Source of the DNA: Akkermansia muciniphila
Lineage (GTDB): Bacteria > Verrucomicrobiota > Verrucomicrobiia > Limisphaerales > BJHT01
DNA length: 64,000 bases
NCBI GenBank assembly: GCA_945861535.1
Contig: CAMAUZ010000022.1
Coordinates: 1 to 64,000, forward strand
Direction of reading: 5' to 3'
Of this stretch, positions 4,506 through 52,162 are shown piece after piece. A model generated the notes under the pieces. The model was not told the DNA's origin. It did no database searches and saw only the letters and a list, made by a program, of their open reading frames with translations. Position 1 is the first letter of the stretch. The number at the start of each line of letters is the position of its first letter. The position numbers and the translations under genes are program-made.

Positions 4506-5384
4506 TTAGTAGAGCCAGTTAGAAATCTTCCCCTCCGCATCCAACACCACGCCCTGCCGCCGATACGCCCAGCACATGTAGCTGATGCTGACGAAGAACG
4601 ATGCGGGCAGGCGGTTGGCCGCGCAGATCTTGGTGCCCAGCAGCGTGGTCTTGCCGCCGAAACCCATCGGGCCGATGCCGAGTTCATTGGCCGTCTTGAC
4701 GATGTCTTGTTCGAGCGCATCGAGTCCCGCGTGCGGATTACGGTCGTCGAGGCGACGGAGGAATTGCTGCTTCGAGAGTTCGTAGCCGGTCGCGCGGTCG
4801 CCGCCGATGCACACGCCGAGGATGCCCGGGCCGCAGCCTTTTCCCTGCGCCTGCAACACGGCGTCGAGGATGACTTTGCGGCAGCCGTCGAGGTCGCGGT
4901 TGGCGTGGAGCTTCTCGTTCGGCAGCGAATATTGCGCGCCGACATTCTCGCAGCCGCCGCCTTTCAGTATCAGGCGCACGTTCAATTCCGGGCCGTGGTG
5001 CTGGTGAAAATGCACCGTCGGCGAGCCGGGGCCGACGTTGGTGCCGTCGTTCACGCCCGTCAGCGAATCGACGGAGTTCTGGCGCAGAAAACCTTTTTTC
5101 GTCGCCGCCTTCACCGCCAGCTTCGCCTCGTCTTCGAACGCCATCTGGTCCAGGCCGACCGGGCATTCGATGTAGAAGATGATGCTGCCGGTGTCCTGGC
5201 AGATGGGCTGCGACTTCTGCTTCGCCAGCGCGATGTTGCGGTCGATGATCTTCAGCGCCGATTCGGCGATCGTCCCTTTCTTCTCGTTCTCGAGCGAGGT
5301 CAGGATGGCTTGATGCACGTCGTCGGGGATCTCGGCGGAGGTGCGGCGGATGAGTTCGAGCAACGCGGCGGGCAGGTCTTTCAT
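4506..5384 (-). CDS. Class I (Fe-S) fumarate hydratase, alpha/N-terminal subunit
   Basis: KQKSQPICQDTGSIIFYIECPVGLDQ...NVGPGSPTVHFHQHHGPELNVRLILKGGGCENVGAQYSLPNEKL...KTTLLGTKICAANRLPASFFVSISYMCWAYRR, typical Fumerase domain. Confidence 0.9.
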   Translation of the reverse strand: MKDLPAALLELIRRTSAEIPDDVHQAILTSLENEKKGTIAESALKIIDRNIALAKQKSQPICQDTGSIIFYIECPVGLDQMAFEDEAKLAVKAATKKGFLRQNSVDSLTGVNDGTNVGPGSPTVHFHQHHGPELNVRLILKGGGCENVGAQYSLPNEKLHANRDLDGCRKVILDAVLQAQGKGCGPGILGVCIGGDRATGYELSKQQFLRRLDDRNPHAGLDALEQDIVKTANELGIGPMGFGGKTTLLGTKICAANRLPASFFVSISYMCWAYRRQGVVLDAEGKISNWLY

Positions 5385-6103: not shown

Positions 6104-6289
6104 AAACAAACGTAGAAAACCAAACTCACGGATCAGAACTTGTCCCACAGGGCCGCCGAGTTGCCAGCGGGAGAAGGCCGAGGCGAGCGGATGCCGTCCG
6201 GGAGGCGAGGCCAAGGGACAATTCATGGATCGGGTGGTAGTTGACGCGCTCGCAACCGTCAACGTCCGAACCCTGATCGCCGCGTAATT

Positions 6290-6558
6290 GGGCGCATCTC
6301 AGTTTCCTGTAACCTTGGGCAGGCACAGGTGCCGTGCTCGAGGAAACCTGCGGCGGCATGCGCGCGGGCGCGGTGGGGCAGGCTTCCAACATGCCAGTTC
6401 GGGCGGCATCCCTGCCGCCAGCTCCTGCCTCCGCGCGGTGGAGGGTCACGGACACGGGAACACGGGGCAGGGATGCCCCGTCAACTGGCAGGCAAGGATG
6501 CCTTGCCCAACCGGCTGTCGCGGACGCCACGCCGCGTGCAAGAAACTGAGAGGCGTCC
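6290..6558. mobile_element. TIR-bounded nested palindromic element, copy A (upstream of pfaD)
   Basis: Left end GGGCGCATCTCAGTTTCCTGTAACCTTGGGCAGGCAC, right end TGCAAGAAACTGAGAGGCGTCC. The interior contains the GGGGCAGGC...GCCTTGCCC palindrome. Resembles the copies at 32961-33168 and 51830-52102. Confidence 0.65.
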
Positions 6559-6751
6559 GCGGCGAATTGAGCGAGTTATGGTTCCTTTACACGCGGGGGA
6601 TGTTTGCTACCGTGCGCGGTCGCTCGCCGAGTCGAACACCGTGATTTCATGGGGTTTGGTGGCCAGTCTTCCAAATGATAACGCGCATGTTCGACCAACC
6701 GCTCCGGGCGCCCGCCCGGCGCCCCGGATTTGCTTTCGTCACCCCGCCCGC

Positions 6752-8401
6752 ATGACCCCGGCCGTTACCCCGCAACCCCGCACCCGCGGCTGGTGGACGG
6801 CCAATGGCACTCCCGCCGCCACGGACGCGGCCGCGTTGCGCACAGCGCTGGCGGATTTGCATCAGCCGGTCGCACTGGTCGAGAGCGATGGCCAGTTGGC
6901 GCTGGCGGAGGGTGGAATGATCCGATTTGGCGCGGTGAACGCCGCCCCCGACGACGCGCCGATCTCGGGCTACGCGCCGGCCTCGCCGGTGGAGAATCTG
7001 GGGGAAAAATCTTTCTGCGATGACCACGGGCTGCGCTTCGCCTGCGTGGCGGGCGCGATGGCCAATGGCATCGGCTCGGAGGAAATCGTCGAGGCGATGG
7101 GGCGCGACGGGATGCTCGGTTTCTTCGGCGCGGGCGGATTGCCGCTGGCGCGTGTCGAGGCGGCGGTCGAGCGCGTGACGCGGGTGCTGGGTGCGCGGCC
7201 GTTTGGTTTTAATCTCATCCACAGCCCGAACGAACCCGATCTCGAGGCCGCCGTCGTTGAACTGTATTTGCGGCGCGGTGTGCGGTTGATCGAGGCCTCG
7301 GCGTTTCTCGGGCTGACGCTGCCGGTCGTGCGCTATCGGGTTCATGGAATTCGGCGCGACGCGGACGGGCGCGTGGTCACGCCGCATCGCATCGTGGCGA
7401 AGGTTTCGCGGGTCGAGGTGGCGTCGCAGTTTTTCTCCCCGCCGCCGCCGGCGTTGCTTCAGGAACTGGTGCGGCGTGGCGATATAACCGCGGAGCAGGC
7501 GAAACTGGCGGCGGAAATTTCCGTCGCGCAGGACGTGACCGCCGAGGCCGATTCCGGCGGGCACACGGACAATCGCCCGGCCATTTCACTGCTGCCCACG
7601 ATGATCGCGCTGCGCGACCGGATGCAGGAGCAATTTCACTACGCCCAACCGCTGCGCGTCGGCGCGGCGGGCGGCATCGCCACGCCGGCGAGCGTGGCGG
7701 CGGCGTTCGCGATGGGCGCGGCGTATGTCGTGACCGGCTCGGTGAACCAGGCGTGCGTCGAGTCGGGTTCTTCCGACCTCGTGCGCCAGATGCTCGCGCA
7801 GGCGCAGCAGGCGGACGTCGCGATGGCCCCGGCGGGCGACATGTTCGAGATGGGCGTGAAAGTGCAGGTGCTCAAGCGCGGCACGATGTTCCCGATGCGC
7901 GCCGCGAAACTCTACGAACTCTACCGCGCCCACGACCGGCTCGAATCGATCCCCGCCGCCGACCGCGCGAACTTGGAGAAGAATTTTTTCCGCATGACGC
8001 TCGAGGAAACGTGGGAGCAGACGAAGCGGTTTTTCCAGCAGCGCGACCCGCAGCAGATCGAGCGCGCCGAGCGTGATCCGAAGCACAAGCTGGCCCTCGT
8101 CTTCCGCAGCTACCTCGGCCAAAGCTCGCGCTGGGCCAACGCCGGCGAGCCGACGCGCGTGATGGATTACCAAATCTGGTGCGGCCCCGCGATGGGCGCG
8201 TTCAACGAATGGGCGCGCGGCTCGTTCCTCGAAGCGCCCGCCAACCGCCGCGTCGTCACCATCGCCCTGAACCTCCTCCACGGCGCGGGCGTGACGCTGC
8301 GCCTGGCCACGCTTCGCGGCCAGGGCCTGCGGCTGCCGGCCGAACTCACCCGCGTCCGCCCCGTGGAACCCGAAGCTTTGCGAGAACTTTTGCGCGCATG
8401 A
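6752..8401 (+). CDS. pfaD: PfaD-type trans-acting enoyl reductase of PUFA/secondary-lipid synthase (nitropropane-dioxygenase-like TIM barrel)
   Basis: GAMANGIGSEEIVEAMGRDGMLGFFGAGG..., EADSGGHTDNRPAISLLPTMIALRD, GAAGGIATPASVAAAFAMGAAYVVTGSVNQACVESGSS. Stop overlaps the pfaA start (ATGA). Confidence 0.9.
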   Translation: MTPAVTPQPRTRGWWTANGTPAATDAAALRTALADLHQPVALVESDGQLALAEGGMIRFGAVNAAPDDAPISGYAPASPVENLGEKSFCDDHGLRFACVAGAMANGIGSEEIVEAMGRDGMLGFFGAGGLPLARVEAAVERVTRVLGARPFGFNLIHSPNEPDLEAAVVELYLRRGVRLIEASAFLGLTLPVVRYRVHGIRRDADGRVVTPHRIVAKVSRVEVASQFFSPPPPALLQELVRRGDITAEQAKLAAEISVAQDVTAEADSGGHTDNRPAISLLPTMIALRDRMQEQFHYAQPLRVGAAGGIATPASVAAAFAMGAAYVVTGSVNQACVESGSSDLVRQMLAQAQQADVAMAPAGDMFEMGVKVQVLKRGTMFPMRAAKLYELYRAHDRLESIPAADRANLEKNFFRMTLEETWEQTKRFFQQRDPQQIERAERDPKHKLALVFRSYLGQSSRWANAGEPTRVMDYQIWCGPAMGAFNEWARGSFLEAPANRRVVTIALNLLHGAGVTLRLATLRGQGLRLPAELTRVRPVEPEALRELLRA

Positions 8402-11400
8402 ACCAAACGCCAGACCCCGCCGGACGCCCGGCCCCGGAGCCGATCGCCATCATCGGCATGAGCTGCCTCTTTCCGAAGGCGGACAACCTCCAGTCCTTCT
8501 GGGCCAACATCAAAAACGGTGTCGATGCCATCACCGAGGTGCCCACCGCCTCGCACTGGAACCCGCGCGATTTTTTCAACGCCGACCCCAAGGCGCCGGA
8601 CCAAACCTATTGCCTGCGCGGCGGTTTTATTTCCCCGGTGCAGTTTGATCCGCTGGAATTCGGCATCGCTCCGAAAGACCTCGAAGCCACGGACACCACG
8701 CAATTGCTCGGTCTCGTCGCGGCCAAGCAGGCGCTGCTCGATGCCGGCTACGGCGGCGACCGCGAGTTCAACCGCGACCGCACGAGCGTGATCCTGGGCG
8801 TCACCGGCACGCTCGAACTCGTCATTCCGCTCGGCGCGCGGCTCGGGCATCCGATCTGGCGGCGCGCGTTGCAGGAGGCGGGCGTGGACGCGCAGACGAG
8901 CGACGACGTGGTGCAGCGCATCGCCGATTCCTACGTGGGCTGGCAGGAGAATTCGTTCCCCGGATTGCTCGGCAATGTCACGGCGGGCCGCATTTCCAAC
9001 CGCCTGAATCTCGGCGGCACCAACTGCGTGGTGGACGCCGCGTGCGCCAGTTCGTTGAGCGCGATTCATCTCGCCACGCTCGAATTGCAGGCGGGCCGCT
9101 CGGACATGGTGATCTCGGGCGGGCTGGACACCTTCAACGACATTTTCATGTACATGTGCTTCAGCAAAACCCCGGCGCTCTCGCCGACGGGTGATGCGAA
9201 GCCGTTCGATCGCGATGGCGACGGCACGATTCTCGGCGAAGGCATCGGCACCGTGGTGCTCAAGCGCCTGTCCGACGCGGAGCGCGATGGCGACCGCATT
9301 TACGCGGTCATCCGCGGTCTCGGCTCGTCGAGCGATGGCAAGGGCGGCGCGGTCTATGCGCCCGTTGCCTCCGGCCAGATGAAGGCGCTGCGCCGGACAT
9401 ACGAACTCGGCGGCGTCACGCCCGACTCGATTGAAATGGTCGAGGCGCACGGCACCGGCACGCGTGTCGGCGACGCGACCGAAGTCACGGCGCTGACGAG
9501 TGTTTATCGCGACGCCAAAGCCGAAGGCACCTGGTGCGCGCTCGGTTCGGTGAAATCGCAGATCGGCCACACAAAAGCCGCCGCCGGCGCCGCGGGCCTC
9601 ATCAAGGCCGCGCTCGCGCTGCATCACAAAGTCCTGCCGCCGACGATCAAGGTCCGCCAGCCCGTCGAGCCGGCCGCGCCCGGCAAATCACCGTTTTATC
9701 TCAACACCACCAAACGCCCGTGGCTGCCGTCGGCCACGCATCCGCGTCGCGCGGCGCTGAGCGCGTTTGGTTTTGGCGGCAGCAATTTTCACTGCCTGCT
9801 GGAGGAAGTTTCCCCGACGAAGTCCGCGCCCGACTGGGACGGCGACACCGAGGTGGTCGCGCTTTCCGCCGACACCGTGGCGGAATTGAAGAAGGCGTTG
9901 AATGAACCGCTCGCCGAGCTGTCGTGGCCGGCGTTGCAACGACGCGCGGCGAAGACGCGGGCGGCGTTTTGTCAGAATTCCGCGACTGAGGGGGTGGGTT
10001 CTGTAGCGCAGGTTTCCAAACCTGCTGTGTCGCCGACTTCCAAGTCGGCGGGGCGCGCGCCAGCACGGACGCAGCAAACAACCCCGGCGGCCGCAGGTTT
10101 GGAAACCTGCGACACAGCAGGCTTGGAAGCCTGCGGTACCAACGCCAAACCCTTCCGCCTGTTGCTCGTCATCGAACGCGGTCGCACGGATTTGAAGAAG
10201 CTCGTCACGGCGGCGCGGGCGCAACTGGAGAAGCATTCAGCCAAGCCCTGGCAATTGCCCGAAGGCGCGTTCTTCGGCTGCGGACGTCCGAACGGTCGTC
10301 TGGGCGTGCTGTTCCCCGGGCAGGGTTCGCAATACAGCGGGATGCTGCGCGACCTGAGCTGCCAGTTTCCGCAGATGCAGGCCGGACTGGCGCAGGCCAA
10401 CGAGATTTTCGCCGAAGCCCACGCGGGCACCGCGCGGGTACCGCAGGCGTCCCCGCCTGCGAGTTCGCGGGGCGTCTCGCCCCGAGTACCAACGGGCGGC
10501 GAGACGCCGCCAGAACTCGCAGGCGGGGACGCCTGCGGTACCAAAGGCGCGCGGCTCACCGATTACATTTATCCGCATCCCGCCTTCGACGAGGCGACGG
10601 CGAAGGCGCAGGACGCCACGCTCAAGGCCACCGACATTGCGCAGCCCGCAATTGGCGCGGTCAGTCTGGCCGCGTTGCAGGTGCTCGAAGCGTTTGGCGT
10701 TTCGCCCGAGGCCGCCGCCGGGCACAGCTACGGCGAACTGCTCGCGTTGTGCGCCTCGGGCCGCATCCATTCCGACACGCTGCACCGGCTCTCGAATCTG
10801 CGCGGACGCCTCATGGCGCAGGCCAACGGCGCAGGCGACAGCGGCGCGATGCTCGCCGTGAAAGCGCCGGTCGAGACGGTCGAGCAGTTCATCCGCGAAG
10901 AACGCTTCGATCTCGTGGTCGCCAATCGCAACGCGCCCGATCAGGCCGTGCTGGCGGGCGCGGTCGGCGAGATCGAGCGCGCCTCGCAGAGCCTCGAACG
11001 CCGCGCGATCTGGAACCGCCGCCTGCCCGTGGCCGCCGCGTTTCACAGTCCGCTCGTGGCGGCGGCGCAAACGCCGTTCGCCGAGGCGCTCAGCACGGTC
11101 GAGCTTTCGCCGTCGCGCATTCCCGTCTATGCGAACACCACGGCCCGCGAATATCCGCGCGCAGCCCAGGACGCGCGCCAGCTCCTCGCCGGCCAGCTTG
11201 CGAACCCGGTCGATTTTGTCGCCGAGATCAACGCGATGTTCGCCGATGGCGTCACCACCTTCCTCGAAGTCGGCCCCGGCCACACGCTCACCGGCCTCGT
11301 GCAATCCATCCTGCGCGACCGCGATATCCACGCCATCGCGCTCGACAGCTCGCGCGGCAAACGCTCGGGCATCGTCGATCTCGCCCTCGCGTTGAGCCGT

Positions 11401-14400
11401 CTGGCCGCGCTCGGGCACGCGGTCGATCTCACCTCGTGGAATGCGGGCGTCGCGCTGCCGGAACCGGAAACCGGCGGCAAACCGCGCCTGACCGTTCCCC
11501 TCAGCGGCGCGAATCATCGCACGCCGAAGCCTTCGCGTCCGCCGACCCCGCCGCGCGCTTTGGCCGCTGCGCCGATTGCGCCCGTTGCTGCGCCTGCGCC
11601 GGTTGCGAGAACGATTGCTGCGCCGAGTTCGTCCGCGTCGCCGTTGCCCGCGCCGCCTGCTAAACCTGCGCCTTCATCGTTCGCTGTCGCGCCCGTTGCG
11701 GCCGCGCCCGGACAGATTTCCGAAGCGGTGCGCGCGAGTCGCGAGAGCCTCGCCGTGCTGCTCCAGCTTCAGGAACAAACTGCGCGTCTCCACCGGCAAT
11801 TCCTCGACGGCCAAGACGCCGGCCGCCGCACGATGCACGCGTTGCTCGAACAACAGCAGCGGCTACTGTCCGGCGCGGGGCCGATCTTTTCGCCGCTGCC
11901 TGCGGCGGCCACGCCGGTTGTGCCGAGCGCGCCAGTCGCGCCAGTTGCCCGTCTGACAAGTCCGACTCCAGCAATTGCGCCCGCAGCAACTCCCACGCGC
12001 ACTCCTGCCGCGCCCACACCAGCGCGCGTGGACGACGGACCCATCGAGAAAACGCTCCTCGGCGTGGTGGCGGAGAAGACCGGCTATCCCGCCGAGATGC
12101 TGAATCTCGAAATGAGCCTCGACGCCGACCTCGGCATCGACTCGATCAAGCGCGTGGAAATCCTCTCCGCGTTGCAGGAGAAACTGCCCGACGCGCCGGT
12201 GATCAAGCCCGACCAGCTCGGCGCGCTCCAGACGCTGCGGCAGGTCGCGGATTTTCTGCGGCAGGGCACGGCGCCCGCTGCGCCTGCCGCGATGGTTTCA
12301 GTCTCGCCCGCGCCGGTCGCGATCCCCGCTGCACGCGCTGACACCGGCCGCGTCGAGCAAACGCTGCTCGGCGTCGTGGCGGAGAAAACGGGCTATCCCG
12401 CCGAGATGCTGAATCTCGGCATGAGTCTTGATGCGGACCTCGGCATCGACTCGATCAAGCGCGTGGAAATCCTCTCGGCCTTGCAGGAGAAGTTGCCCGA
12501 CGCACCGGTCATCAAGCCCGACCAACTTGGCGCGCTCCAGACGTTGCAGCAGGTGGTGGATTTCCTGTGCGCTGGACTGTCGGCCAGTGCTCCGGCGGCC
12601 GGTGTCTCGCAGGCTTCCGCATCCGCTGCGCCTCCAGTCGCGCGCGTTGACCAAGGCCGCATCGAACAAACCCTGCTCGGCGTGGTGGCGGAAAAGACCG
12701 GCTATCCCGCCGAGATGTTGAATTTCGAGATGAGCCTCGACGCCGACCTCGGCATCGACTCGATCAAGCGCGTGGAAATCCTCTCGGCGTTGCAGGAGAA
12801 GCTGCCCGACGCGCCGGTCATCAAGCCCGACCAACTCGGCGCGCTCCAGACGTTGCGGCAGGTCGTCGAGTTTCTCGGTGCCGCGTCCGCAACCGCACCG
12901 GCGGCAGCGGGCGTGACCGCAGTTTTGAGCAATCCCAGCGCGGCTCCCGCCGTGGACAGCGCGCAAGTCGCAACCGTGCTGCTCGGCGTGGTGGCGGAGA
13001 AGACCGGCTACCCCGCCGAGATGCTGAATCTCGAGATGAGCCTCGACGCCGATCTCGGCATCGACTCGATCAAGCGCGTGGAAATCCTCTCGGCGTTGCA
13101 AGAGCGGCTGCCGTCCGCGCCGGTCATCAAGCCCGACCAGCTCGGCGCGCTTCAGACGCTGCGGCAGGTGGTGGAGTTTCTCTCCGCTGCATCGGCTCCG
13201 AAGGCCGCCGCGCCGAGCGTGGCGCGGGTCGCTAAAGTTCCCGCAATCCCGGTTTCCGCCCCGGTCCAACAGCGGCTTCAGCGCCTGATTGCGACCCCGG
13301 TGGCGCTCGGTTCGCGCGCATCCGCGCCCGCCCTTACGCTCGCGAAGAATACGCCGGTGTGGGTGACCGAAGACGGCAGCAGTCTCTCGGCGGCGGTGGC
13401 GGCGGCGTTCACGCGCAAGGGCATGACGGCGCGCGTCGTTTCGCTGACCGAGGCGGCGGCGCGGTCGGGTGCGGCGGCGGAGTTGCTCGGTGGCTTGGTG
13501 GTGTTGTCGCCGGCGCAGGAGTGTGGCGAGGCGTTTTTGAAACAGGCGTTTCTTGCAGTGCAAGCGCGGGCGGCGGCGCTGCGGCGGGCGGGCTCAGAGC
13601 AGGCCGCGTTTCTCGTCACGGTGTCGCAGCTCGATGGGCGCTTTGGTTTCGGTGGTGATCTGAATCAGCCGTTGAGCGGCGGTCTCGCGGGCTTGGCGAA
13701 AACGGCCGGGCGCGAATGGTCCGAGGTCGCGGCGAAGGCAATTGATCTCGCGGCCGATGTCGAGGTGTCGGCGGCGGCGGACGCGATTGTGGAAGAAGCG
13801 TTGCGTGTCGGTCCCGCCGAGGTCGGTGTGTCGCGCGAGGGGCGGATTGGTCTGGAATTGATCGACATGCCGGTGGCGGCGGCGGGCGCGGGCGCGGCGG
13901 TGTTGCGCGCGGGCGAGGTGGTCGTGGTGACGGGCGGCAGTCGCGGCGTGACGGCGGAGGTGGCGGTCGGATTGGCGCAGGCGTTCCAGCCGACGCTGGT
14001 GTTGCTCGGGCGCAGTCCCGCGCCGGAGGCCGAGCCGGAGTGGCTCGCGGCGTTGCACGACGAGGCGGAGATCAAGAAGGCGATCCACGCGCACCTGAAT
14101 GTTCCGGCCACGCCGAAAGCGGTCGAGACGCAGTTCCGGCGCTGGCTGGCGAATCGCGAGATTCTGCGGAACATCGCGCGGATGACCGCGGCGGGCGCGA
14201 CCGTTTTGTATCGCTCGCTGGATGTCCGGGACGCGCGGCAGATCGGCGCTTTGTTGAATGAACTGCGGCATGAGTTTGGCCCGATTCGCGGGCTGATCCA
14301 CGGCGCGGGCGTGCTCGCGGACAAACGGATCGAGGACAAGACGGCGGAGCAATTCGACTCGGTCTGGAGCACGAAGGTGAGCGGCGCGGAGGTGCTGCTG

Positions 14401-15723
14401 GCCGCGCTGACGAATGACGAGTTGCACTGTCTGGTGATGTTCTCGTCCTCGACCGCGCGGTTTGGGCGCGTGGGCCAGGTGGATTACGCGATGGCGAACG
14501 AGGTGCTGAACAAGCTCGCGCAGGCCGAGGCGCGGCGGCGTCCCGATTGCCGCGTGGTGGCGATGAACTGGGGTCCGTGGAATGGCGGGATGGTCACGCC
14601 GGCGTTGCGGCGCGTGTTCGCGCAGGAAGGCGTGGGCGTGATCGAAACGGCGGCGGGGGCGGATTTGCTGGTGCGCGAGTTGTCCGCGCCGGTCACGAGT
14701 TCGTCGCCGGTCGAGATCGTGGTGCTCGCACCGCTGAAGGGGAAGGCGGCGGCGGTGGGGGATGAGGTGGGTGGTGACGGCGGCGGGGAGCGGGGGGCGA
14801 GACGCCTCCCGAACTCGCAGGCGGGGACGCCTGCGGTACCGGGGGCGGTCGCGGAAGCGGCGGCGGTGACGGTGGCGTTCGAGCGCGAGTTGAGCGTGGG
14901 GCAGATGCCGTGCCTGAAGTCGCATGTGCTCGATGGCCGGGCGGTTTTTCCGGTCGCGCTGATCGTGGAGTGGCTGGCGCACGGGGCGCTGCATTGTCAT
15001 CCGGGCTTGGGGTTTTGCGGCTTTGATGATCTGCGGGTTTTCAAGGGCGTGCGGCTGGACCCTCGGCACGCGGTGACGCTGCGCGTGCTGGCGCACGCAC
15101 CGCAGCGTGCGGGCGCGGAGACACACGTCGTGATGGAACTGGTCGGCGGCGAGCGCGAGAAACCGGTGCTGCACGCGCGGGCGCGCATCATTTTGGGCGA
15201 ACGGTCGGCGGCACCGCAGGCGCAGTCGGCAGCGTTGCAGATGGGTGGCGACACATGGGTCGGCGGCGGCTGGTATGGGCCGGACGCGTTGTTTCACGGG
15301 CCGGAGTTTCAAGGCATCACAGCGGTCGAGGCGTGCGGGCCGCATGGGATTGCGGCGCGGGTGAAGACGTCGCCGTCGCCGAAGACGTGGGTGGCGAATC
15401 CGCTGCGGGGCAGTTGGATCGCCGATCCGCTCGCGCTCGATGTGAGCTTTCAGTTGATGATTCTGTGGACGCTGGGCGAGCAGCGCGCGCCGTCGCTGCC
15501 GTGTGCGGCAGTGCGGTATCGGCAGTTCGTGGCGCGTTTCCCGCGCGAAGGCGTGCGGGTGGTGGCGCGCGTCACGCAGGCGACGCCGCAGAAGGCCACG
15601 GCGGACATCGAGTTTCTCGATGCGTCCGGCGGCGTGCTAGCGCGGATGGAAGGCTACGAATGCGTGATTGATCCGTCGCTGGTCGAGGCTTTCAGGCGGA
15701 ACGCGCTGGGTGACGCGGTCTGA
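8398..15723 (+). CDS. pfaA: PfaA-type polyunsaturated fatty acid synthase subunit: KS-AT-ACPx4-KR-DH
   Basis: KS VDAACASSLSAIHLA / EAHGTGTRVGD / IGHTKAAAG; AT GVLFPGQGSQYSGM and GHSYGEL; four LGIDSIKRVEILSALQE ACPs; KR VVTGGSRGVTAEVA; DH HVLDGRAVFP. ATG at 8398. Confidence 0.93.
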   Translation: MNQTPDPAGRPAPEPIAIIGMSCLFPKADNLQSFWANIKNGVDAITEVPTASHWNPRDFFNADPKAPDQTYCLRGGFISPVQFDPLEFGIAPKDLEATDTTQLLGLVAAKQALLDAGYGGDREFNRDRTSVILGVTGTLELVIPLGARLGHPIWRRALQEAGVDAQTSDDVVQRIADSYVGWQENSFPGLLGNVTAGRISNRLNLGGTNCVVDAACASSLSAIHLATLELQAGRSDMVISGGLDTFNDIFMYMCFSKTPALSPTGDAKPFDRDGDGTILGEGIGTVVLKRLSDAERDGDRIYAVIRGLGSSSDGKGGAVYAPVASGQMKALRRTYELGGVTPDSIEMVEAHGTGTRVGDATEVTALTSVYRDAKAEGTWCALGSVKSQIGHTKAAAGAAGLIKAALALHHKVLPPTIKVRQPVEPAAPGKSPFYLNTTKRPWLPSATHPRRAALSAFGFGGSNFHCLLEEVSPTKSAPDWDGDTEVVALSADTVAELKKALNEPLAELSWPALQRRAAKTRAAFCQNSATEGVGSVAQVSKPAVSPTSKSAGRAPARTQQTTPAAAGLETCDTAGLEACGTNAKPFRLLLVIERGRTDLKKLVTAARAQLEKHSAKPWQLPEGAFFGCGRPNGRLGVLFPGQGSQYSGMLRDLSCQFPQMQAGLAQANEIFAEAHAGTARVPQASPPASSRGVSPRVPTGGETPPELAGGDACGTKGARLTDYIYPHPAFDEATAKAQDATLKATDIAQPAIGAVSLAALQVLEAFGVSPEAAAGHSYGELLALCASGRIHSDTLHRLSNLRGRLMAQANGAGDSGAMLAVKAPVETVEQFIREERFDLVVANRNAPDQAVLAGAVGEIERASQSLERRAIWNRRLPVAAAFHSPLVAAAQTPFAEALSTVELSPSRIPVYANTTAREYPRAAQDARQLLAGQLANPVDFVAEINAMFADGVTTFLEVGPGHTLTGLVQSILRDRDIHAIALDSSRGKRSGIVDLALALSRLAALGHAVDLTSWNAGVALPEPETGGKPRLTVPLSGANHRTPKPSRPPTPPRALAAAPIAPVAAPAPVARTIAAPSSSASPLPAPPAKPAPSSFAVAPVAAAPGQISEAVRASRESLAVLLQLQEQTARLHRQFLDGQDAGRRTMHALLEQQQRLLSGAGPIFSPLPAAATPVVPSAPVAPVARLTSPTPAIAPAATPTRTPAAPTPARVDDGPIEKTLLGVVAEKTGYPAEMLNLEMSLDADLGIDSIKRVEILSALQEKLPDAPVIKPDQLGALQTLRQVADFLRQGTAPAAPAAMVSVSPAPVAIPAARADTGRVEQTLLGVVAEKTGYPAEMLNLGMSLDADLGIDSIKRVEILSALQEKLPDAPVIKPDQLGALQTLQQVVDFLCAGLSASAPAAGVSQASASAAPPVARVDQGRIEQTLLGVVAEKTGYPAEMLNFEMSLDADLGIDSIKRVEILSALQEKLPDAPVIKPDQLGALQTLRQVVEFLGAASATAPAAAGVTAVLSNPSAAPAVDSAQVATVLLGVVAEKTGYPAEMLNLEMSLDADLGIDSIKRVEILSALQERLPSAPVIKPDQLGALQTLRQVVEFLSAASAPKAAAPSVARVAKVPAIPVSAPVQQRLQRLIATPVALGSRASAPALTLAKNTPVWVTEDGSSLSAAVAAAFTRKGMTARVVSLTEAAARSGAAAELLGGLVVLSPAQECGEAFLKQAFLAVQARAAALRRAGSEQAAFLVTVSQLDGRFGFGGDLNQPLSGGLAGLAKTAGREWSEVAAKAIDLAADVEVSAAADAIVEEALRVGPAEVGVSREGRIGLELIDMPVAAAGAGAAVLRAGEVVVVTGGSRGVTAEVAVGLAQAFQPTLVLLGRSPAPEAEPEWLAALHDEAEIKKAIHAHLNVPATPKAVETQFRRWLANREILRNIARMTAAGATVLYRSLDVRDARQIGALLNELRHEFGPIRGLIHGAGVLADKRIEDKTAEQFDSVWSTKVSGAEVLLAALTNDELHCLVMFSSSTARFGRVGQVDYAMANEVLNKLAQAEARRRPDCRVVAMNWGPWNGGMVTPALRRVFAQEGVGVIETAAGADLLVRELSAPVTSSSPVEIVVLAPLKGKAAAVGDEVGGDGGGERGARRLPNSQAGTPAVPGAVAEAAAVTVAFERELSVGQMPCLKSHVLDGRAVFPVALIVEWLAHGALHCHPGLGFCGFDDLRVFKGVRLDPRHAVTLRVLAHAPQRAGAETHVVMELVGGEREKPVLHARARIILGERSAAPQAQSAALQMGGDTWVGGGWYGPDALFHGPEFQGITAVEACGPHGIAARVKTSPSPKTWVANPLRGSWIADPLALDVSFQLMILWTLGEQRAPSLPCAAVRYRQFVARFPREGVRVVARVTQATPQKATADIEFLDASGGVLARMEGYECVIDPSLVEAFRRNALGDAV
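10001..10140. repeat. Palindromic repeat in frame inside pfaA (KS-AT linker)
   Basis: gcaggtttccaaacctgc...gcaggtttggaaacctgc, with inner gccgacttccaagtcggc and gcaggcttggaagcctgc. Translated as VAQVSKPAVSPTSKSAG...AAAGLETCDTAGLEACGT. Spacer copy at 1348-1505. Confidence 0.85.
10437..10542. repeat. Palindromic repeat with perfect 29-bp arms, in frame inside the pfaA AT domain
   Basis: GGTACCGCAGGCGTCCCCGCCTGCGAGTT ... AACTCGCAGGCGGGGACGCCTGCGGTACC, read as RVPQASPPASSRGVSPRVPTGGETPPELAGGDACGT. Confidence 0.9.
12022..13190 (+). other. Four tandem acyl carrier protein repeats (about 309-bp period)
   Basis: LLGVVAEKTGYPAEMLNxxMSLDADLGIDSIKRVEILSALQExLPxAPVIKPDQLGALQTL occurs four times; GIDSIK serines at about 12142, 12451, 12760 and 13069. 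Confidence 0.95.
14796..14840. repeat. Half-copy of the GGTACC palindromic repeat, in frame in pfaA (KR-DH linker)
   Basis: gcgagacgcctcccgaactcgcaggcggggacgcctgcggtacc; peptide RRLPNSQAGTPAVPG. Confidence 0.8.
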
Positions 15724-15734
15724 GCTGGGACGGG

Positions 15735-15778
15735 ATTTTAACCACGGATAAACACGGATGAACACGGATAGGAATGGA
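15735..15778. repeat. ACCACGGATAAACACGGATGAACACGGAT short-period repeat
   Basis: Three CACGGAT units with 10-bp period; related copies near 24118 and 55205-55312. Confidence 0.7.
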
Positions 15779-15848
15779 GGATTGGCGGGGGCGCGTGGCG
15801 TTCGTGGGGAGGCGGAGGGGGTGCGGGGTGATGGCGCTGCTTTGATTT

Positions 15849-16037
15849 GGAGTGCGGTGACTGGTCACCGCTTTTGCGCAGGCGACTTGTCGCCGTCGAA
15901 TTTCTGTGCGCGTTCGATCACGAGTGCGCGCCACCGCTGGCGCGAGCCGTGGACGGGCCTTTTGAATTCGCTCAATTGTCTCGGTTCGACGGCGACAAGT
16001 CGCCTCGCGAAAGCGGTGACGAGTCACCGCACTCCAA
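15849..16037. repeat. Palindromic repeat 'GGAGTGCGGTGAC...GTCACCGCACTCC' between pfaA and pfaC
   Basis: ggagtgcggtgactggtcaccgctttt / aaagcggtgacgagtcaccgcactcc plus inner gcgacttgtcgccgtcgaa / cgacggcgacaagtcgc type arms. Confidence 0.8.
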
Positions 16038-16088
16038 ATGACATGCCCCGAGTTGATGGAGCTGAGTCGCGAGTTTGGAACCGTTCTC

Positions 16089-16223
16089 CCTCACCCCAAC
16101 CCTCTCCCGCTGGGAGAGGGGGAAGGTTCGGACGCGGTCGTTGGCAGGAGAACGATCCACTGTTCGAGAGGCGGTCACAGGGCCTCCCTCTCCCAGCGGG
16201 AGAGGGTTGGGGCGAGGGAGAAT
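16089..16223. repeat. Inverted repeat 'CTCACCCCAACCCTCTCCCGCTGGGAGAGGG'
   Basis: ccctcaccccaaccctctcccgctgggagaggg at the left, inverted ccctctcccagcgggagagggttggggcgaggg at the right. Confidence 0.8.
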
Positions 16224-16271
16224 GGGTACGTCGCGCCAGGCCCGCTACGATTCGCCAATGCGGAGTTCGCG

Positions 16272-19200
16272 ATGAAGTTTGACCAGCCCATCGCGATCGT
16301 GGGGTTGGGCGGGATCTTTCCTGGATCGCCGACGCTGGAGGCGTTTTGGGAGAATCTGCGCGCGGCGCGAGACACGGCGCGCGAGGTGCCGGAGGGGCGG
16401 TGGAGTTTGCGTCCCGAGGAGGTACACGATCCGCGCGGGCCGATGCCGGACAAGGTTTACACGACCCGCGCTTGCTTCATCGAAGGTTTCGCGCTGGAGA
16501 CGGCGGGGCTGGATTTGCCATCGGATTTGCTGGGGAGTTTGGACCCGATGTTTCATCTGCTGCTCCACGCGGGACGACAGGCGTGGCGCGATGCGCGGAC
16601 GGAGGCGGTGGACCGCCAGCGGGTGGGTGTGATCATCGGGAATATCGCGCTGCCGACGGAGAGTGTTTCGGCGTTTGCCGAGGAGGTGCTGCTGCCGGCG
16701 TTCGAGGCAAAGTTGTTTGCGGAGGGGTTGGATCCGAGGTCTGAAGTCGGGGGGGCACACCCGCCCCCGGGTGTCGCTGGATGCGCCCTCGCATCCAGCG
16801 CCGGGGTGCGGGCCGGCGGCGCGGAAAGTTCGGACGATTTCGTGCCACCCGGGTTTTCCGCGAGGGCGCGGAAAACAGCACCCGAGGGCGGGTGCGCTCC
16901 CCAGGCAGGTTCGGCGTTCGGCTTGAACCGCTACGTGGCGGGGCTGCCGGCGGGGGTGCTGGCGCGGGCGCTGGGGCTGGGCGGTGGGGCGTTCACGCTG
17001 GATGCGGCGTGCGCGTCGTCGCTGTACGCGCTGAAGCTGGCGTGTGATGAACTGCTGGCGGGGCGGGCGGACGCGATGTTGACGGGCGGTTTGTCGCGGC
17101 CGGATTCGCTGTACACGCAGATGGGTTTTTCGCAGTTGCGCGCGCTGTCGCCGACGGGGCGGTGCTCGCCGTTCGATGCGCAGGGCAACGGGCTGGTGGT
17201 GGGCGAAGGCTCGGGGATGCTGGTGTTGAAGCGGCTCGCGGACGCGGAGGCGGCGGGCGATCACATTTACGGCGTGATCCGCGGCATCGGGTTGTCGAAT
17301 GACATCGAGGGGAATCTGCTCGCGCCGAGTTCGGAGGGGCAGTTGCGCGCGATGCGGGCGGCGTATGCGGAGGCGGGCTGGGTGCCGGAGAGCGTGGATT
17401 TGATCGAGTGTCACGCGACGGGCACGCCGGTCGGGGACGCGGTGGAATTCGAGAGTTTGCGGCGGCTGTGGAGCGGCGCGACGTGGCGCGCGGGGCAGTG
17501 TGCGTTGGGCGCGGTGAAGGCGAATGTCGGGCATCTGCTCACGGGCGCGGGCGCGGCGGGGTTGATCAAGGTGCTGCTGGCGATGCGCCATGAAACGCTG
17601 CCGCCGGTGCCGAATTTCACGCGGGCGGCGGAGAAGATTCCGCTGGCGGAAAGTCCGTTTCAGATTTTGTCCGTGGCGCAACCGTGGCGGCGGCGCGCGC
17701 CGGATGCGCCGCGGCGGGCGGCGGTGAGCGCGTTTGGTTTCGGGGGTATCAATGCACATGTGTTGGTGGAGGAATATTTGCCGACGGTGGCGAAGGCGCG
17801 GGGGGTGAGTGCGGGGCCGGCGGTGGAGACGTCGGCGGAGGCGAAGCGCGCGGCGGTGCCGGTGGCGATCGTGGGGATGGAGGCGATCGTGGGGCCGTGG
17901 GGGGATTTGCGGGAATTTCAGGAGCGCGTGCTGGGCGGGGGCGCGGCGGTGGAGCCGACGAGGGAACGGGCGGCGTTTGGCGTGGGGAGAGGAACTGGGG
18001 AATCTCGGCGGGAACGCCCCTCCTCTCCCCGGCCCTCTCCTCCCTCCGAGGGAGGAGAGGGAGACGGTGCGCGCCGTGAATTTCAGGTGGCGCTGAATTC
18101 GACGGGTGCGTTGGCGGGAGTGAGTTCGGCGACGGTGCCCGGATTTTATCTCGACGATGTGGCCGTGCCGATCGACCGGTTTCGCATTCCGCCGAAGGAG
18201 CTGGAGGAGATGCTGCCACAGCAGTTGCTGATGTTGCAGGCGGCGGCGGGGGCGTTGGCGGATGCGGCGCTGGAGACGATGGACCGGTTGCGGACGGGCG
18301 TTTTCATCGGCATCGCGTTGGATCTAGCGACGACGAATTTTCATTTCCGCTGGTTGATGTTGAAACACGCGCGCGAGTGGGCGCGGCGGGCCGGGCTGGA
18401 GCTTTCGGCGGAGGAAATGGAGCGCTGGGTGGCGCAGCTTCGCGACGCGGCGGGGCCGGCGCTGAATGCGAATCGCACGATGGGCGCGCTCGGGGGAATC
18501 GTGGCGAGCCGTCTGGCGCGGGAGTTTCGGCTGGGCGGGCCGTGCCACACGATTTCGAGCGAGGACACGTCGGGGCTGCACGCGCTGGCGGTGGCGGTGC
18601 GCGCGTTGCAACAGGGCGAACTCGACACGGCGCTCGTTGGCGCGGTCGAGCTGGCGGGCGATCCGCGGGCGCTGGCGGGGACGGCGACGCACCGGCAGTT
18701 CGCAGCGGAGTTGGGTGCGGCGGGTGTAAATCCGGGAGAAGGCGCGGTGGCGCTGGTGTTGAAGCGGCTCGATGACGCGCAACGCGATGGCAACCGGATT
18801 TACGGCGTTTTGCGGGGTGTGGGAATGGCGACGGGCGGCGGCGTGGTCGGCGGCGTGCCGGCGGCGGCGGCGTGCGCGGAGTCGTGGGGGCGGGCGCTCG
18901 GGGAGGCGGGGGTGACGCTCGCAGATGTGCGCTTGGTGGAGGCGAATGCGAGTGGCGACGCGGCGGAGGATGCACTGGAAGGCGCGGCGTTGACGCCGTT
19001 GCTGCGCGGTGAGCGCGCGGATGCGGGCGCGACGGCGGGGCCGCCGGCGTTGGTGCTGGGGCGGACGAAAAATGTGGTTGGGCACACGGGCGCGGCGGCG
19101 GGGTTGGTGTCGGTGGTGAAGGCGGCGCTGAGTTTGTATCAGGAAATGTTGGCGCCGGCGGCGAGTGCGGCGCGCGGTGCGGCGGGGGAGAACGCAATTT

Positions 19201-22200
19201 CAGCGGAGATGGTGCAACAACCGGAGACATCGCGGTATTGGCTGCGCGATCGGATCAAGGGGCCGCGGCGCGCGGTGGTGGGCGGGTTTGGGTTCGATGG
19301 AAATTCGGTGCATGTCGTGATGGAGGCGTGCGAAGGGCAGGATTTGGCGCGGGTACAAATGGAGCGTCGGCAGCCGTTGGGGGCGCGGGACGAGGCGCTG
19401 TTCGTCGCGACGGCGGGTGACGAGGAGCAGCTCGGGAAGGGGCTGCGGCGGCTGGGCGATTTTGCGCGGGCGGCGAATGGCGCGGCGATCGAGGCGACGG
19501 CGCGGCGGTGGTGGGCGCAGGAGAAGGTGCGCGGTGGCGGCGCGGCGATGCGTCGCGTGGCGTTGGTCGCGCGGGATTCGCTCGAGCTGGCGCGGTTGGC
19601 GGAGGCGGCGGCGCGGTCTTTGGAGGAGCTGCCGGGGGAATCGCCGGCGGCGAATCCGCGCGTGGGGCGTGGCGATGCGGAGCGGATTTTTTATGCGGCG
19701 TCACCGCTGGCGGCGCAGGGGGACGTGGCGTTTGTGTTTCCGGGTTCGGGGAATCACTTCCTGGACATGGGGCGCGAGCTGGGCGCGCAGTGGCCGGAGG
19801 TTTTGCGGGCGCAGGATCGCGAGAATGAGCGGCTGGCGACGCAGTTGGTGGGGGATTGGTTCTGGGGCGGGGCGTCGCTGGAGGCGGTGCAGGCGGATCA
19901 TCATGTGATGATTTTCGGGCAGGTGGCGACGGGTGCGGTGTTCAGCGACTGGGCGCGGGTGATGGGGGTCGAGCCGCGCGCGGTGATTGGGTACAGCCTG
20001 GGGGAATCGGCGGGGTTGTTTTCGTTGCGGGCGTGGGGGGCGGGAGAAATTTCTCCCAACCCAAGTTCGCGCTTTGGTACCCAGAACGAGCTTGGGGGAG
20101 GAGCGCCGAGCATCGCTCGGCACGATGCCGGCGCCGCACCCGCAGGCCGAGCAATGCTCGGCGCTCCGGTTCATGCGCGGGATGAGATGCTGCGGCGGAT
20201 GGAAGGCTCGACGCTGTTTACGCGTGACCTCGCGGGGGAATGTCGCGCGGCGAAGGCAGCGTGGAAGTTGGCGGAGGTCGAGGAGGTCGCGTGGCGGCTC
20301 GGGGTGGTGGATCGTCCGGCGGAGGTGGTGCGCGCGGCGCTGGCGGGGCGGCAGCGCGTGTATCTGCTGATCGTGAACACGCCGGGCGAGTGCGTGATTG
20401 GCGGCGATCTGGAGGGGGTGGGACATTTGGTGGCCGACCTGGGTTGCCAGTGGTTTCCGATTGCGGGCGTGACGACGGTGCATTGCGAGGTCGCGCAGCC
20501 GGTGGCGGCGCAGTATCGCGAGCTGCATTTGTTTCCGACGCAGGCGCCGACGGGCGTGCGGTTTTACAGCGGGGCGTGGGGGCGGTCGTTTGCGGTGACG
20601 CGGGAGACGGCGGCGGATGCGATTTTGGCGCAGGCGCTCGGGGGCGTGGATTTTCCAAAGACGGTGAACGCAGCGTATGCGGATGGCGCGCGGCTGTTTG
20701 TCGAGATGGGGCCGGGGAATTCGTGCAGCCGGATGATCGGCAAGATTCTGGAGGGGCGGGCGCATCTGGCGAGGTCGGTGTGCGTGCCGCGAGTGGATGT
20801 GGTCGGGCATGCATTGCGGGTCCTGGCGCAGTTGGTCGCGGAGGGAGTGCCGGTGAATCTGGAGGCGCTTTACGGCGCGCCGACGGGTGTGGTGGGGCAT
20901 CGCGAGGCGGGTGGCGACAGCGGGGCGAAGCGGGTGGTGGTGCCGCTGGCGTTGCGGGAATTTAAGGTGCCGGTGTGGCCGAGGGGGGCGGTGCGGGGCG
21001 AAGCGGGTGGGGAAGGCCGAGAGGAACTGGCGGCGAGACGCCGCCAGAACTCGCAGGCGGGGACGCCTGCGGTACCGGGGGCGGTGGCGGCAGCTCTGGC
21101 GGCGGGTGGACGGCCATCTTCTCCCCGGCCCTCTCGTCCCGCGGCGGGAGGAGAGGGAGACGGAGCGCTCGTTGTATCACAGCCTTTTGCCAGTGCGACG
21201 GTTGCGAGCGCGGTTGGTGGCGACTCAGCGGCGGAGGTTGATCCGTTGTTCGCGTTGTGGGCGGCGGCGGAGCGGGCGGGCGGGGAGGCGCACGAGGCGT
21301 TCTTGAGATTTTCGGAGAGGATGCAGGCGACGGTGGCGCAGCAGGTGGGCGCGGAGCAGGCGTTGTTGGCGGGGTTGGCGGCGCGCGGAGAATCGGCTGG
21401 CGTGTCGCCGCTGGTGTGGGCGCTGGAGCCGGAGCGACAGGCGGATGAATTGCCGCGGGCGGTTGGTTCCGCGTCTGGGACGCAGCCGCAGTCCGCGGCA
21501 GTCGCGGTGTCGCGGCCGCCGGTGGCGTTGACGCGCGAGCAGTGTCTGGAGTTTGCGGTGGGTTCGATTGGGCGCGTGCTGGGCGATCGGTTCGCGGCGG
21601 TGGATGCGTTTCCGACGCGGGTGCGGTTGCCGGATGAACCGCTGATGTTGGTGGATCGTATTCTCACCATCGAGGGCGAGCCGTGCTCGATGACGCGTGG
21701 GCGGGTGGTGACGGAGCACGATATTCATCTGGGCGCGTGGTATCTGGATGCGAACCGGATTCCGACGTGCATCGCGGTGGAGGCGGGGCAGGCGGATTTG
21801 TTTTTGTCGGGTTATCTCGGGATCGATTTTCAGTCGCGCGGGCTGGCGGTGTACCGGCTGCTGGATGCGGTGGTGACGTTTCATCGCGGGCTGCCGGGGC
21901 CGGGCGAGGTGATTCATTACGACATTCGCATCAATGGATTTTTCCGGCAGGGCGACACCTGGCTGTTCCGGTTCAGTTTCGAGGGCACGGTGAACGGCGA
22001 GCCATTGCTGACGATGCGGGACGGGTGCGCGGGATTTTTCACGCTCGCGGAATTGCAGTCGGGCAAGGGCGTGATCCACACGGCGCTGGATCTGCGACCG
22101 ATGCCGGGGAAGCGCGCGCCGGATTGGGAGGCGCTGGTGCCGGTGGCGGTGGAAGCGTACAGCGACGCGCAGATTGCGGCGCTGCGGCGCGGGGATTTGG

Positions 22201-31497: not shown

Positions 31498-32898
31498 CTA
31501 CACCGGCTCCACAATCGCCTCGCTCGCACTGTGCCCGATCACGCGAATGCCCTGCCCCGGCGCAATCATCTCCCCTTGCGAAATCACATCGATCACGTCG
31601 TCACCGAACCGCCCTTTGCCGCCGGGCCGTAACGGCGAGACACTCACGCCCACCTGTCCCACGCGCCGCGCGTGCTCCTGCGCCAGCAGAGCGACCGTCC
31701 GCTCGCCGCTCGCGGAATTCGTCACCAGCCGCCCGTAGAGCGACGTCTTCGGCAGCCACAGACTGAGCACCCAGCACACCACCCCGGCCCCAAGAAATGA
31801 GAACAGGATCCGCATCAGCGGCACCTGAATCTGCGGCAACGTCGGCATCGCCGGAGCACCCGGATAAATGTCCACCATCGCCATCACCAGCGCCGCCAGC
31901 ATCACGCCCGCGCCCATCAGCCCGAGCACGATCGATCCCGGAAACACAAAGAACTCCACCATCACCAACAGCAGTCCGATCACAAACACCGCGATCCATT
32001 CCATCCCCGACAGCCCCGCCACGTAACCGCCCAGAAAATAAATCGCGAACGCACACACCCCGACAATGCCCGGCAGTCCGAACCCCGGCGTCTTCATCTC
32101 GAGATAAATCCCCGCGATGCCGATCATCAACAACAGCGGGCTGATCGTGTTGATCCACGTCGCCAGCCGCTCGACGCCCGTCGGCTCGATGGTGAACCGT
32201 TTCGCCGCCGACAGCCCCGACCATTTCAGCAACTCGTCGAGCGACTCCACCGTCCCCAGCGACAACAGCGGCTTGGCCGGCTTGCCATACGATTTCTCCG
32301 CCTGCTTGTTCGTGAGCGTGAGAATCTGCCCCTTCTCGTTGAGCACCTCGCCGTCCACCGTCAGCTCCTTCGTCTTGTCGATCATCGCCTCGATCACCGC
32401 GATGTTGTGCCCGTTCTTCTCCGCGCTCGTGCGGACCAGCGCGCGAATCCCCGAGGTCATCTTCGCCTCGACCGTGTCGGGCAATTTCGTCGGCCCGCTG
32501 CCATCCGGCGACAGCATGATCGGCGCGGCCGCCCCGATGACACTCTGCGGCGCCATGTAAATCTTCTGCGTCGCCACCGCGAGGAACGCCCCCGCCGAGA
32601 ACGCCTTCCGGTTCACAAACGTGATCGTCTCGCCCTTGAACTGCCCGAGAATCCCGACGATCTCGCCGGTCACATCCACCCGCCCGCCATGCGTGTCCAT
32701 GTCCAGCACCAGCACGTCCGCCTTCTCCTTGATCGCCAGCTTCACCCCGCGCCGCACCAGATAAACCAGCGGCGGCATGATGTCCTCGCGAATCGGGAGC
32801 ACCACGACCTTGAGCTCCGCCTTCGCCTCGGCCGCACCTGCGCCACCCAGCGGCCACCACGCCAGACATCCGAGAAAAATCACAATCCAAGTCTTCAT
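31498..32898 (-). CDS. NfeD-family membrane-bound serine protease (ClpP-class)
   Basis: Signal peptide; LVLDMDTHGGRVDVTGEIVGIL; AFSAGAFLAVATQKIYMAPQSVIGAAAPI; multiple TM segments and a C-terminal OB-like region. ATG at 32898. Confidence 0.88.
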   Translation of the reverse strand: MKTWIVIFLGCLAWWPLGGAGAAEAKAELKVVVLPIREDIMPPLVYLVRRGVKLAIKEKADVLVLDMDTHGGRVDVTGEIVGILGQFKGETITFVNRKAFSAGAFLAVATQKIYMAPQSVIGAAAPIMLSPDGSGPTKLPDTVEAKMTSGIRALVRTSAEKNGHNIAVIEAMIDKTKELTVDGEVLNEKGQILTLTNKQAEKSYGKPAKPLLSLGTVESLDELLKWSGLSAAKRFTIEPTGVERLATWINTISPLLLMIGIAGIYLEMKTPGFGLPGIVGVCAFAIYFLGGYVAGLSGMEWIAVFVIGLLLVMVEFFVFPGSIVLGLMGAGVMLAALVMAMVDIYPGAPAMPTLPQIQVPLMRILFSFLGAGVVCWVLSLWLPKTSLYGRLVTNSASGERTVALLAQEHARRVGQVGVSVSPLRPGGKGRFGDDVIDVISQGEMIAPGQGIRVIGHSASEAIVEPV

Positions 32899-32960
32899 GC
32901 CGCGACCGTATCGCAACCCCTCCGCCGTCGCAACGATGCACCGCCAAGCGCCTCGCCGTC

Positions 32961-33168
32961 GGGCGCATCTCAGTTTATTGCACGCTCTCTGGTTCCCATC
33001 CCCAGTCCCGCAGGGACGAAAGAAACCGTGCGCCATCTCGCCGCTTTCGTCCCTGACGGGACTTTCCGGTTCCCCGACCGTACGCCCAGCACTGAAGGGC
33101 TGGGCTATTTTCGGTCGTCGGGACTGCGCCAACGCGCACCGATCGTTGCAGGAAACTCAGATGCGCCC
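32961..33168. mobile_element. TIR-bounded palindromic element, copy B
   Basis: GGGCGCATCTCAGTTTATTGCA ... TGCAGGAAACTCAGATGCGCCC (22-bp ends, 3 mismatches). The interior differs from copies A and C (cagtcccgcagggacgaaag...ctttcgtccctgacgggac). Confidence 0.75.
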
Positions 33169-33239
33169 CTCCCCGTCTGAAACGCGCAACGCGCGCCTCG
33201 TTGACATGCCTGGGGAATGATTCTTTACTCCCGCACCTT

Positions 33240-36005: not shown

Positions 36006-36030
36006 GCGGGGGGGCGGACGAGCGAAGCCG

Positions 36031-36135
36031 GGGTGGCACAGGCGTCCTCGCCGGCGAGTTCGGGCGGCGTCTCGCCGCCGGGACCGAATCGGGCGAGACG
36101 CCCCGAGAACTCACGGGCGAGACGCCTGCGGCACC
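36031..36135. repeat. GGTACC-family palindromic repeat in spacer (diverged)
   Basis: ggtggcacaggcgtcctcgccggcgagttcgggcggcgtctcgccgcc ... gggcgagacgccccgagaactcacgggcgagacgcctgcggcacc. Confidence 0.7.
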
Positions 36136-36262
36136 TTGGCGCAGCCGTACGTTGGCAGGCGGATTTCCGCGTCGTTGGGTTAAACCGCCTCCGCCTCGTC
36201 ACCTCGGCGGCTACTTTTCCCACACTCTCGCCACCCGCAGCGCTCCGCACCTGCGACCACCC

Positions 36263-36939: not shown

Positions 36940-36986
36940 CCCGCGCTTGTTCGTGCGGGTTGTGATCAAAACTAAAACGAAATTAA

Positions 36987-38048
<1,062 letters not shown>

Positions 38049-40870: not shown

Positions 40871-41007
40871 GTGGGGCAGGCATCCTTGCCTGCCGGTTCG
40901 CGGGGCATCCCTGCCCTGTGTTCCTTGCCCCACCGCGCCGCACGGCCGCCGTGGGAACGGGCGGCACGGATGCCGCCCGAACCGTCAGGCTGGAAGCCTG
41001 ACCCACA
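40871..41007. repeat. 137-bp palindromic repeat 'GTGGGGCAGGCATCCTTGCCTGCC...GGCAGGCTGGAAGCCTGCCCCAC', copy 1
   Basis: gtggggcaggcatccttgcctgccggttcgcggggcatccctgccc ... ggcggcacggatgccgcccgaaccgtcaggctggaagcctgacccaca; second copy at 43250-43386. Confidence 0.85.
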
Positions 41008-43249: not shown

Positions 43250-43386
43250 GTGGGGCAGGCATCCTTGCCTGCCGGTTCGCGGGGCATCCCTGCCCCGTGT
43301 TCCCACGCGGTGATCTGCCCGCCGCCGGAAATTGGGCACGGGCGGCACGATGCCGCCCGAACTGGCAGGCTGGAAGCCTGCCCCAC
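43250..43386. repeat. 137-bp palindromic repeat, copy 2
   Basis: Same as 40871-41007, same orientation. Confidence 0.85.
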
Positions 43387-51517: not shown

Positions 51518-51829
51518 GGTTGAAAATTTCGGTGCTGGTTTCCCGTCAGCCGGCGGATTCTCACCGCCACAGCGGTCATTCCAGCCGTTTGCTGGTCAAA
51601 CAGATTTGTGTCCGCGCCGCGATCATCTGGCGCCCTTTGACCGGGTGCTACCATCCCGTGCCCGATCCATTCCCGCAACGTCCCGTTGCGAGCGCGGCCA
51701 ACCTTCGGCATTTGCCCTCCTCGCAGCGTGATTCTTCGTGGATCGAAGCGGGCAGCGCTCCAGCTTGCCAAAAAAAAGGATCCGCCGGCGATGGTTACGG
51801 AAGCCGCGCTCCCGCCGCACTCACGCCGC

Positions 51830-52102
51830 GGGCGCATCTCAGTTTGCTGCAACCTTCGGCAGGCACGGGTGCCGTGTTCGAGGAAACCTGCGGCGGCACG
51901 CACGCACGCACGCGGGCGCGGTGGGGCAGGCATCCTTGCCTTCCAGTTCGGGCGGCATCCCTGCCGCCCGTTTCGATCGCCGAGCACCCCCGCGGAACTG
52001 GGCACAGGGGCAGGGAGGCCCCGCCAACGGGCAGGCAAGGAGGCCTGCCCCACCCGGCTGGCGCGGACGCCAAGCCGCGTGCAGGAAACTGAGATGCGCA
52101 CT
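51830..52102. mobile_element. TIR-bounded nested palindromic element, copy C
   Basis: GGGCGCATCTCAGTTTGCTGCAACCTTCGGCAGGCACGGGTGCCGTGTTCGAGGAAACCTGCGGCGGCACG ... TGCAGGAAACTGAGATGCGCAC; the left part closely matches copy A; inner GGGGCAGGC palindrome. Confidence 0.75.
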
Positions 52103-52162
52103 CCCGCCGCGCCGCGCCATTTCGATGGTTGAAAATTCCTCCTCGCCACGAAAGCCTCACGC

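Follow-up and report, generated by a model that had tools for sequence, protein, structure and literature searches.

Probable ISKra4-group MITEs with interchangeable palindromic cassettes, placed upstream of promoter-like sites in a Verrucomicrobiota genome

Main

Three short elements (A, B and C) in the 64,000-nt stretch of DNA analysed here (the window) are very probably ISKra4 MITEs that carry interchangeable palindromic cassettes and have inserted at a fixed distance upstream of promoter-like sites. A reading made from the sequence alone had proposed a non-autonomous element whose ends capture, or are invaded by, palindromes, and after testing this is still the best description, as judged by paired ends, target-site duplications and dispersed copies. 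We propose that A, B and C are gene-free MITEs that would be mobilised in trans by a transposase of the ISKra4 family (prokaryotic Mutator-like, DDE). This enzyme would recognise the inverted ends, make a 9-bp (sometimes 8-bp) target duplication and prefer a fixed distance upstream of sigma-A-type promoters, with the TTG of the -35 box 27 nt from the element end. The autonomous IS with the same ends resides in other Verrucomicrobiota and has probably been lost from, or is missing in, the assembly that holds the window (G000; 7.94 Mb, 169 contigs), and the arms and the strongly palindromic, interchangeable cassette are separate modules. Judged from sequence, this is a new family of ISKra4 MITEs. 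A literature search that excluded ISfinder and most subscription papers returned no account either of these repeats or of MITEs from the ISKra4 family, which is weak evidence of novelty. The DDE ISKra4 partner, the promoter-upstream preference and the occurrence of the same ends, around other palindromic interiors, in other families of the order go beyond the earlier reading.

Results

Reading each locus confirmed the three copies at the positions given earlier; they have the ends GGGCGCATCTCAGTTT...AAACTGAGATGCGCCC in common. The sequence-only reading had described a shared terminal motif and its inverse; these are present in all copies, but the right ends deviate (GCGCAC and not GCGCCC in C, GAGGCGTCC in A). 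Matches to a 15-bp end core number nine in the window at <=3 mismatches, compared with 2.6 +/- 1.6 in shuffles, and A, B and C account for the six best with their two ends apiece. Each copy combines a TIR pair with an imperfect target-site duplication of ~9 bp. Copy B is 208 bp long, against ~278 bp for its subfamily, owing to an internal deletion. An Rfam search of the window gave zero matches. The features are as follows.

6257..6262, reverse strand: -35-like TTGACG (TTG offset 27, left end of A)
6281..6289, no strand: left target-site duplication of A, CGCGTAATT
6290..6558, forward strand: copy A, a degenerate F1 MITE that holds a type-1 cassette
6559-6568: right target-site duplication of A, GCGGCGAATT, imperfect with an indel
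32928..32933, reverse strand: -35-like TTGCGA (TTG offset 27, left end of B)
32952..32960, no strand: left target-site duplication of B, CTCGCCGTC
32961..33168, forward strand: copy B, an internally deleted F2 MITE that holds part of a type-2 cassette
33169..33177, no strand: right target-site duplication of B, CTCCCCGTC, 8/9 matching
33201..33206, forward strand: TTGACA (offset 32, right end of B), with TTTACT after a spacer of 17 nt
40871..41006, forward strand: standalone type-1 cassette, without TIR
43250..43386, forward strand: standalone type-1 cassette, without TIR, 91% to the F3 cassette
51821..51829, no strand: left target-site duplication of C, TCACGCCGC
51830..52101, forward strand: MITE copy C, subfamily F1, type-1 cassette inside
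51921..52053, forward strand: type-1 palindromic cassette inside C
52102..52110, no strand: right target-site duplication of C, TCCCGCCGC, 8/9 matching
52129..52134, forward strand: -35-like TTGAAA (TTG offset 27, right end of C), which precedes the ORF at 52163

The window holds other features of note. Positions 6329-24065 carry a large cluster resembling a PfaA/PfaC/PfaD-type polyunsaturated fatty acid synthase, with ketoacyl synthase, acyltransferase, four phosphopantetheine sites, KR, dehydratase and FabA domains, plus an NMO/FabD-insert protein. Copy A sits just upstream of the cluster's first gene. A separate palindromic repeat of ~146 bp at 40170-40315, which is not a type-1 cassette, has dozens of copies in the same-genus assembly G001. 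A paired repeat, GGTAGGGCGCGTCTGTCCTCAG...CTGAGGACAGACGCGCCCTACC, occurs in two copies (43126-43213 and 58313-58401), and a unit related to it lies near a Y1 gene at locus L207.

Across G000 the end core has 136 matches at <=1 mismatch, against 0 for the reversed control. The fetched loci contain 114 distinct ends. For 96 of these an inverted partner lies 80-480 bp inward, compared with six in an outward control window, so the ends are mostly paired and not single. Element counts here are drawn from targeted loci and are not a full genome census; 61 pairs were sampled, of high-copy elements of ~210-280 bp without a transposase gene of their own, and the MITE family to which A and C belong has about 40 matches genome-wide. 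With element boundaries taken as GGGCGC...GCGCCC, the 9-base flanks agree at >=7 positions in 34 of the 61 elements, the duplication being 8 bp long in a few. The longest word shared by the two flanks averages 6.28, against 3.84 +/- 0.13 when flanks are re-paired (0/500 shuffles), which puts the ~9-bp duplication far above chance. Copies of F1 average 94.6% identity to their consensus; hence, most are not fresh.

A joined-flank search of G001, covering 12 elements (2520 nt), returned one element-free site: at L008 the G001 alignment crosses the junction with the element absent (85%, 8-nt gap). At L053 the G001 match stops 12 nt past the junction, inside a dispersed repeat, and for B and C, whose flanks are rearranged, no clean empty site was found in G001. 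Gene blocks of window 32600-52599 are recovered at 84-93% identity on G001 contigs C22, C29, C6, C11, C9 and C174, with synteny often broken at or close to repeats, among them copy C and the 40871 cassette. A dispersed repeat of ~100 bp (CGGCCGGGGACGGCCGCACTCCGG type; seen on L217 and L216) is very abundant in G001, partly as tandem arrays, and is a frequent neighbour of MITEs in G000.

Clustering and inspection give three main subfamilies: F1 (n=34, including A and C, each of which entered twice through also being fetched as loci), F2 (n=14, including B) and F3 (n=9), all with consensus sequences that fold almost end to end. Inside arms of ~40-50 bp, F1 and F3 carry a type-1 cassette, GTGGGGCAGGC...GCCTGCCCCAC; at 134-138 bp it is longer than the palindrome that the sequence-only reading had seen in A and C, but the shared cassette itself is there, and it does stand alone at 40871 and 43250. 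The earlier claim that B has a different interior also holds, B being an F2 element with part of a type-2 cassette. Types 1 and 2 are unrelated sequences and each has standalone copies, those of type 2 starting at F2 position 43-45 (five loci). The interiors are modular and belong to a number of unrelated types, of which two are found on their own as well. A further interior type with the same ends occurs at L026 (384 bp), which we considered as an internal deletion of the IS and rejected, given that the outer 22-28 bp alone match. Another, CTCATTAGCACCCGGC...GCCGGGTG, is found between the same ends in G000 (L002, L030), its congener G001 and also G018, which belongs to another family. Interiors of MITEs in other genomes are more structured than shuffles in 12 of 13 cases (z about -4 to -18), the exception being G047.

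The standalone copies bear on whether anything was captured at all. One ancestral interior could simply have diverged, with standalone cassettes being decayed MITEs that have no ends, and weak arm-like flanks at L268 (44 nt, 86%), window 40871 (16 nt) and L263 (13 nt), together with a recognisable TIR on one side only in about a quarter of sampled cassettes, would fit this. However, 26 standalone type-1 cassettes are clean, lacking any TIR within 130 bp, and 23 of these bear no resemblance to the MITE arms. They terminate sharply at identical bases and have unrelated flanks. Two unrelated cassette types are found standalone, and G001 has cassettes yet only four exact end motifs. We consider decay unlikely.

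How cassettes come to lie within the ends is a separate question. F3 and F2 have 56 bp of one arm in common at 96%, and F3, which carries the type-1 cassette, retains ~12 bp of the type-2 cassette beside the arm; from its sequence, F3 looks like an F2-like element in which type 2 was replaced by type 1, the direction of that exchange being our inference. A tree of 47 cassettes places F1 and F3 versions in different parts, each near standalone copies, with moderate support (85/83) and with the degenerate copy A apart from other F1 copies. Homologous or hairpin-driven recombination (gene conversion, template switching) acting on real MITEs, and not transposition, could have exchanged the cassettes. 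Hairpins provoke template switching, the type-2 remnant beside the F3 arm is what a replacement would leave, and standalone cassettes have no target duplications (4.58 against 4.52 expected, n=26). Yet no intermediate or reciprocal product was found, and insertion without duplication (HUH-type) would give much the same picture; we regard exchange by recombination as a real possibility, somewhat short of an even chance.

Of 146 genomes of the order, 26 have the end motif, G000 and its congener among them. In G088 the two ends of a 1473-bp element have an identical 26-bp sequence, and its 473-aa ORF scores 209.7 bits against a curated ISKra4 transposase cut-off of 205; two relatives score higher. 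Intact IS in other Verrucomicrobiota measure ~1.47-1.5 kb and have the same ends, GGGCGCATCTCAGTTTCTTGCA, and 9-bp duplications, a length common to MITEs and IS. A scan of named genomes yielded 35 related loci, mostly labelled Verrucomicrobia or Opitutia (including an Opitutaceae MAG), with a few from Acidobacteria and unlabelled bins. Both ends and perfect 9-bp duplications are seen at six named loci (L300, L301, L304, which is the G045 element, L306, L307 and L309), and duplications are also perfect at the IS of G060 and G014. A transposase match at E <= 0.001 is found in 20 of the 26 end-motif genomes, several matches being short fragments.

The transposase with matching ends is a DDE enzyme of the ISKra4 family in other Verrucomicrobiota and not a RAYT, of which the earlier reading had seen none in the window. 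A transposase search of the G000 draft (169 contigs) found no intact ISKra4 transposase; there are two weak adjacent remnants (29.6 and 21.5 bits). Repeats are frequently missing from draft assemblies, so loss of the IS from G000 is likely rather than certain.

Among other genomes with these ends, G104, from another family of the order, has the highest count of exact end motifs (80), several near contig starts, and its MITEs have other palindromic interiors, some with perfect 9-bp duplications. A 17-bp end motif also lies on a viral contig (L298, IMG/VR; 4783-4799).

A RAYT (Y1, HUH) could in principle move the TIR elements as REP/BIME-type repeats, with the ends merely part of the palindromes. 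The interiors are indeed palindromic, high in copy and devoid of duplications when alone, and the genome has nine Y1 transposase matches, two with a cassette within about 0.7 kb. However, the TIR elements carry 9-bp duplications and match an IS that encodes a DDE transposase, and on these grounds we reject RAYT as their mover and consider such an origin highly improbable. Nor is the Y1 association of the cassettes above chance: cassettes lie near Y1 genes about as often as expected (a rough hand estimate of ~0.4 for type 1 and ~0.1 for type 2), the immediate neighbours of the two Y1 genes are other palindromes, and both Y1 proteins score below the RAYT cut-off. A RAYT reading may still hold for the cassettes alone. 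L207 and L208 have IS200-like Y1 transposase genes among CCCCAACGGGG / AACCCCGCCGGGGTT palindromes, which may be REP-like partners of these genes.

The insertion sites of the ISKra4 MITEs point to a preferred target. A TTG lies at offset 27 outside the element end in 26 of ~119 MITE flanks, against a mean of 1.7 at offsets outside 20-30. In flanks aligned on this TTG, A at +24 and T at +28 each reach 56%, which gives TANNNT behind a spacer of 17 nt. The offset-27 TTG is present at each copy in the window, to the left of A and B and to the right of C. Overall, a TTG lies 25-29 nt outside an end in 40 of 60 elements, with roughly 8 expected from background, and is absent on both sides in about a third. 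The motif and its offset were picked after viewing these flanks, and the independent check comes from the IS (G060, G047, G014, L300 and L302) and from MITEs of other genomes (G104, G047 and G018), which the offset-27 TTG also adjoins. Standalone cassettes have no TTG peak, with at most 3 of 52 flanks at any offset. A scan with a strict promoter consensus (>=9 of 12) gave only 4 matches and masked the signal; position-specific TTG counts revealed the peak.

For TnGBS and related IS, the reported insertion point lies 15-17 bp ahead of the -35 box in sigma-A promoters, and some ISKra4-group IS reportedly have a similar preference, with promoters on both sides (PMC3942029). The distance here, 27 nt from the end to the TTG, is about one helical turn more, which may be a lineage trait or a difference in counting. 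By sequence, the target signature of MITEs and IS resembles the promoter-upstream targeting of ISKra4 elements, and the TTG/TANNNT sites are putative promoters.

Discussion

These results point to the mobilising enzyme of an abundant, apparently undescribed Verrucomicrobiota repeat family and indicate that dispersed palindromes can travel inside mini-transposons of the DDE type. Given the preference for insertion ahead of promoter-like sites, the copies serve as markers of likely promoters, and they may have altered the regulation of many genes. A broader reading, to which we give an even chance, is an order-wide modular system in which one ISKra4 end set has taken up different self-dispersing palindromes, repeatedly and independently, and a promoter-seeking transposase places the hairpins upstream at a constant distance. 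If true, two repeat systems would be coupled into one, with hairpins near many promoters.

The nearest known system is the ISKra4 group of IS, p-MULT 4 among the prokaryotic Mutator-like transposases (PMC3942029). In line with what is reported for members of that group, the matching IS encode an ISKra4 transposase above the curated cut-off, their inverted ends are near-identical, their duplications measure 9 bp and promoter-like sites stand a set distance away, whereas the MITEs encode nothing. With bacterial MITEs such as Correia and RUP (PMC2817692) they share short length, absence of genes, high copy number, inverted ends in common with an IS and target duplications. They differ in having as interior a palindromic cassette, which comes in several unrelated types and is also found alone, and in having ISKra4 instead of IS630 as the partner family. 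Like mobile insertion cassettes (PMC5444012, PMC3129680), they have transposon ends without a transposase and foreign DNA inside, although the passenger is a non-coding palindromic repeat and not a gene. The cassettes themselves resemble REP/BIME (PMC2817692) in their paired inverted palindromes, high copy number and lack of target duplications. Unlike REP/BIME, they are ~135-195 bp long, contain several hairpins, are often enclosed by DDE-type ends and have at most a putative cognate RAYT, and the TIR elements that carry them do have target duplications.
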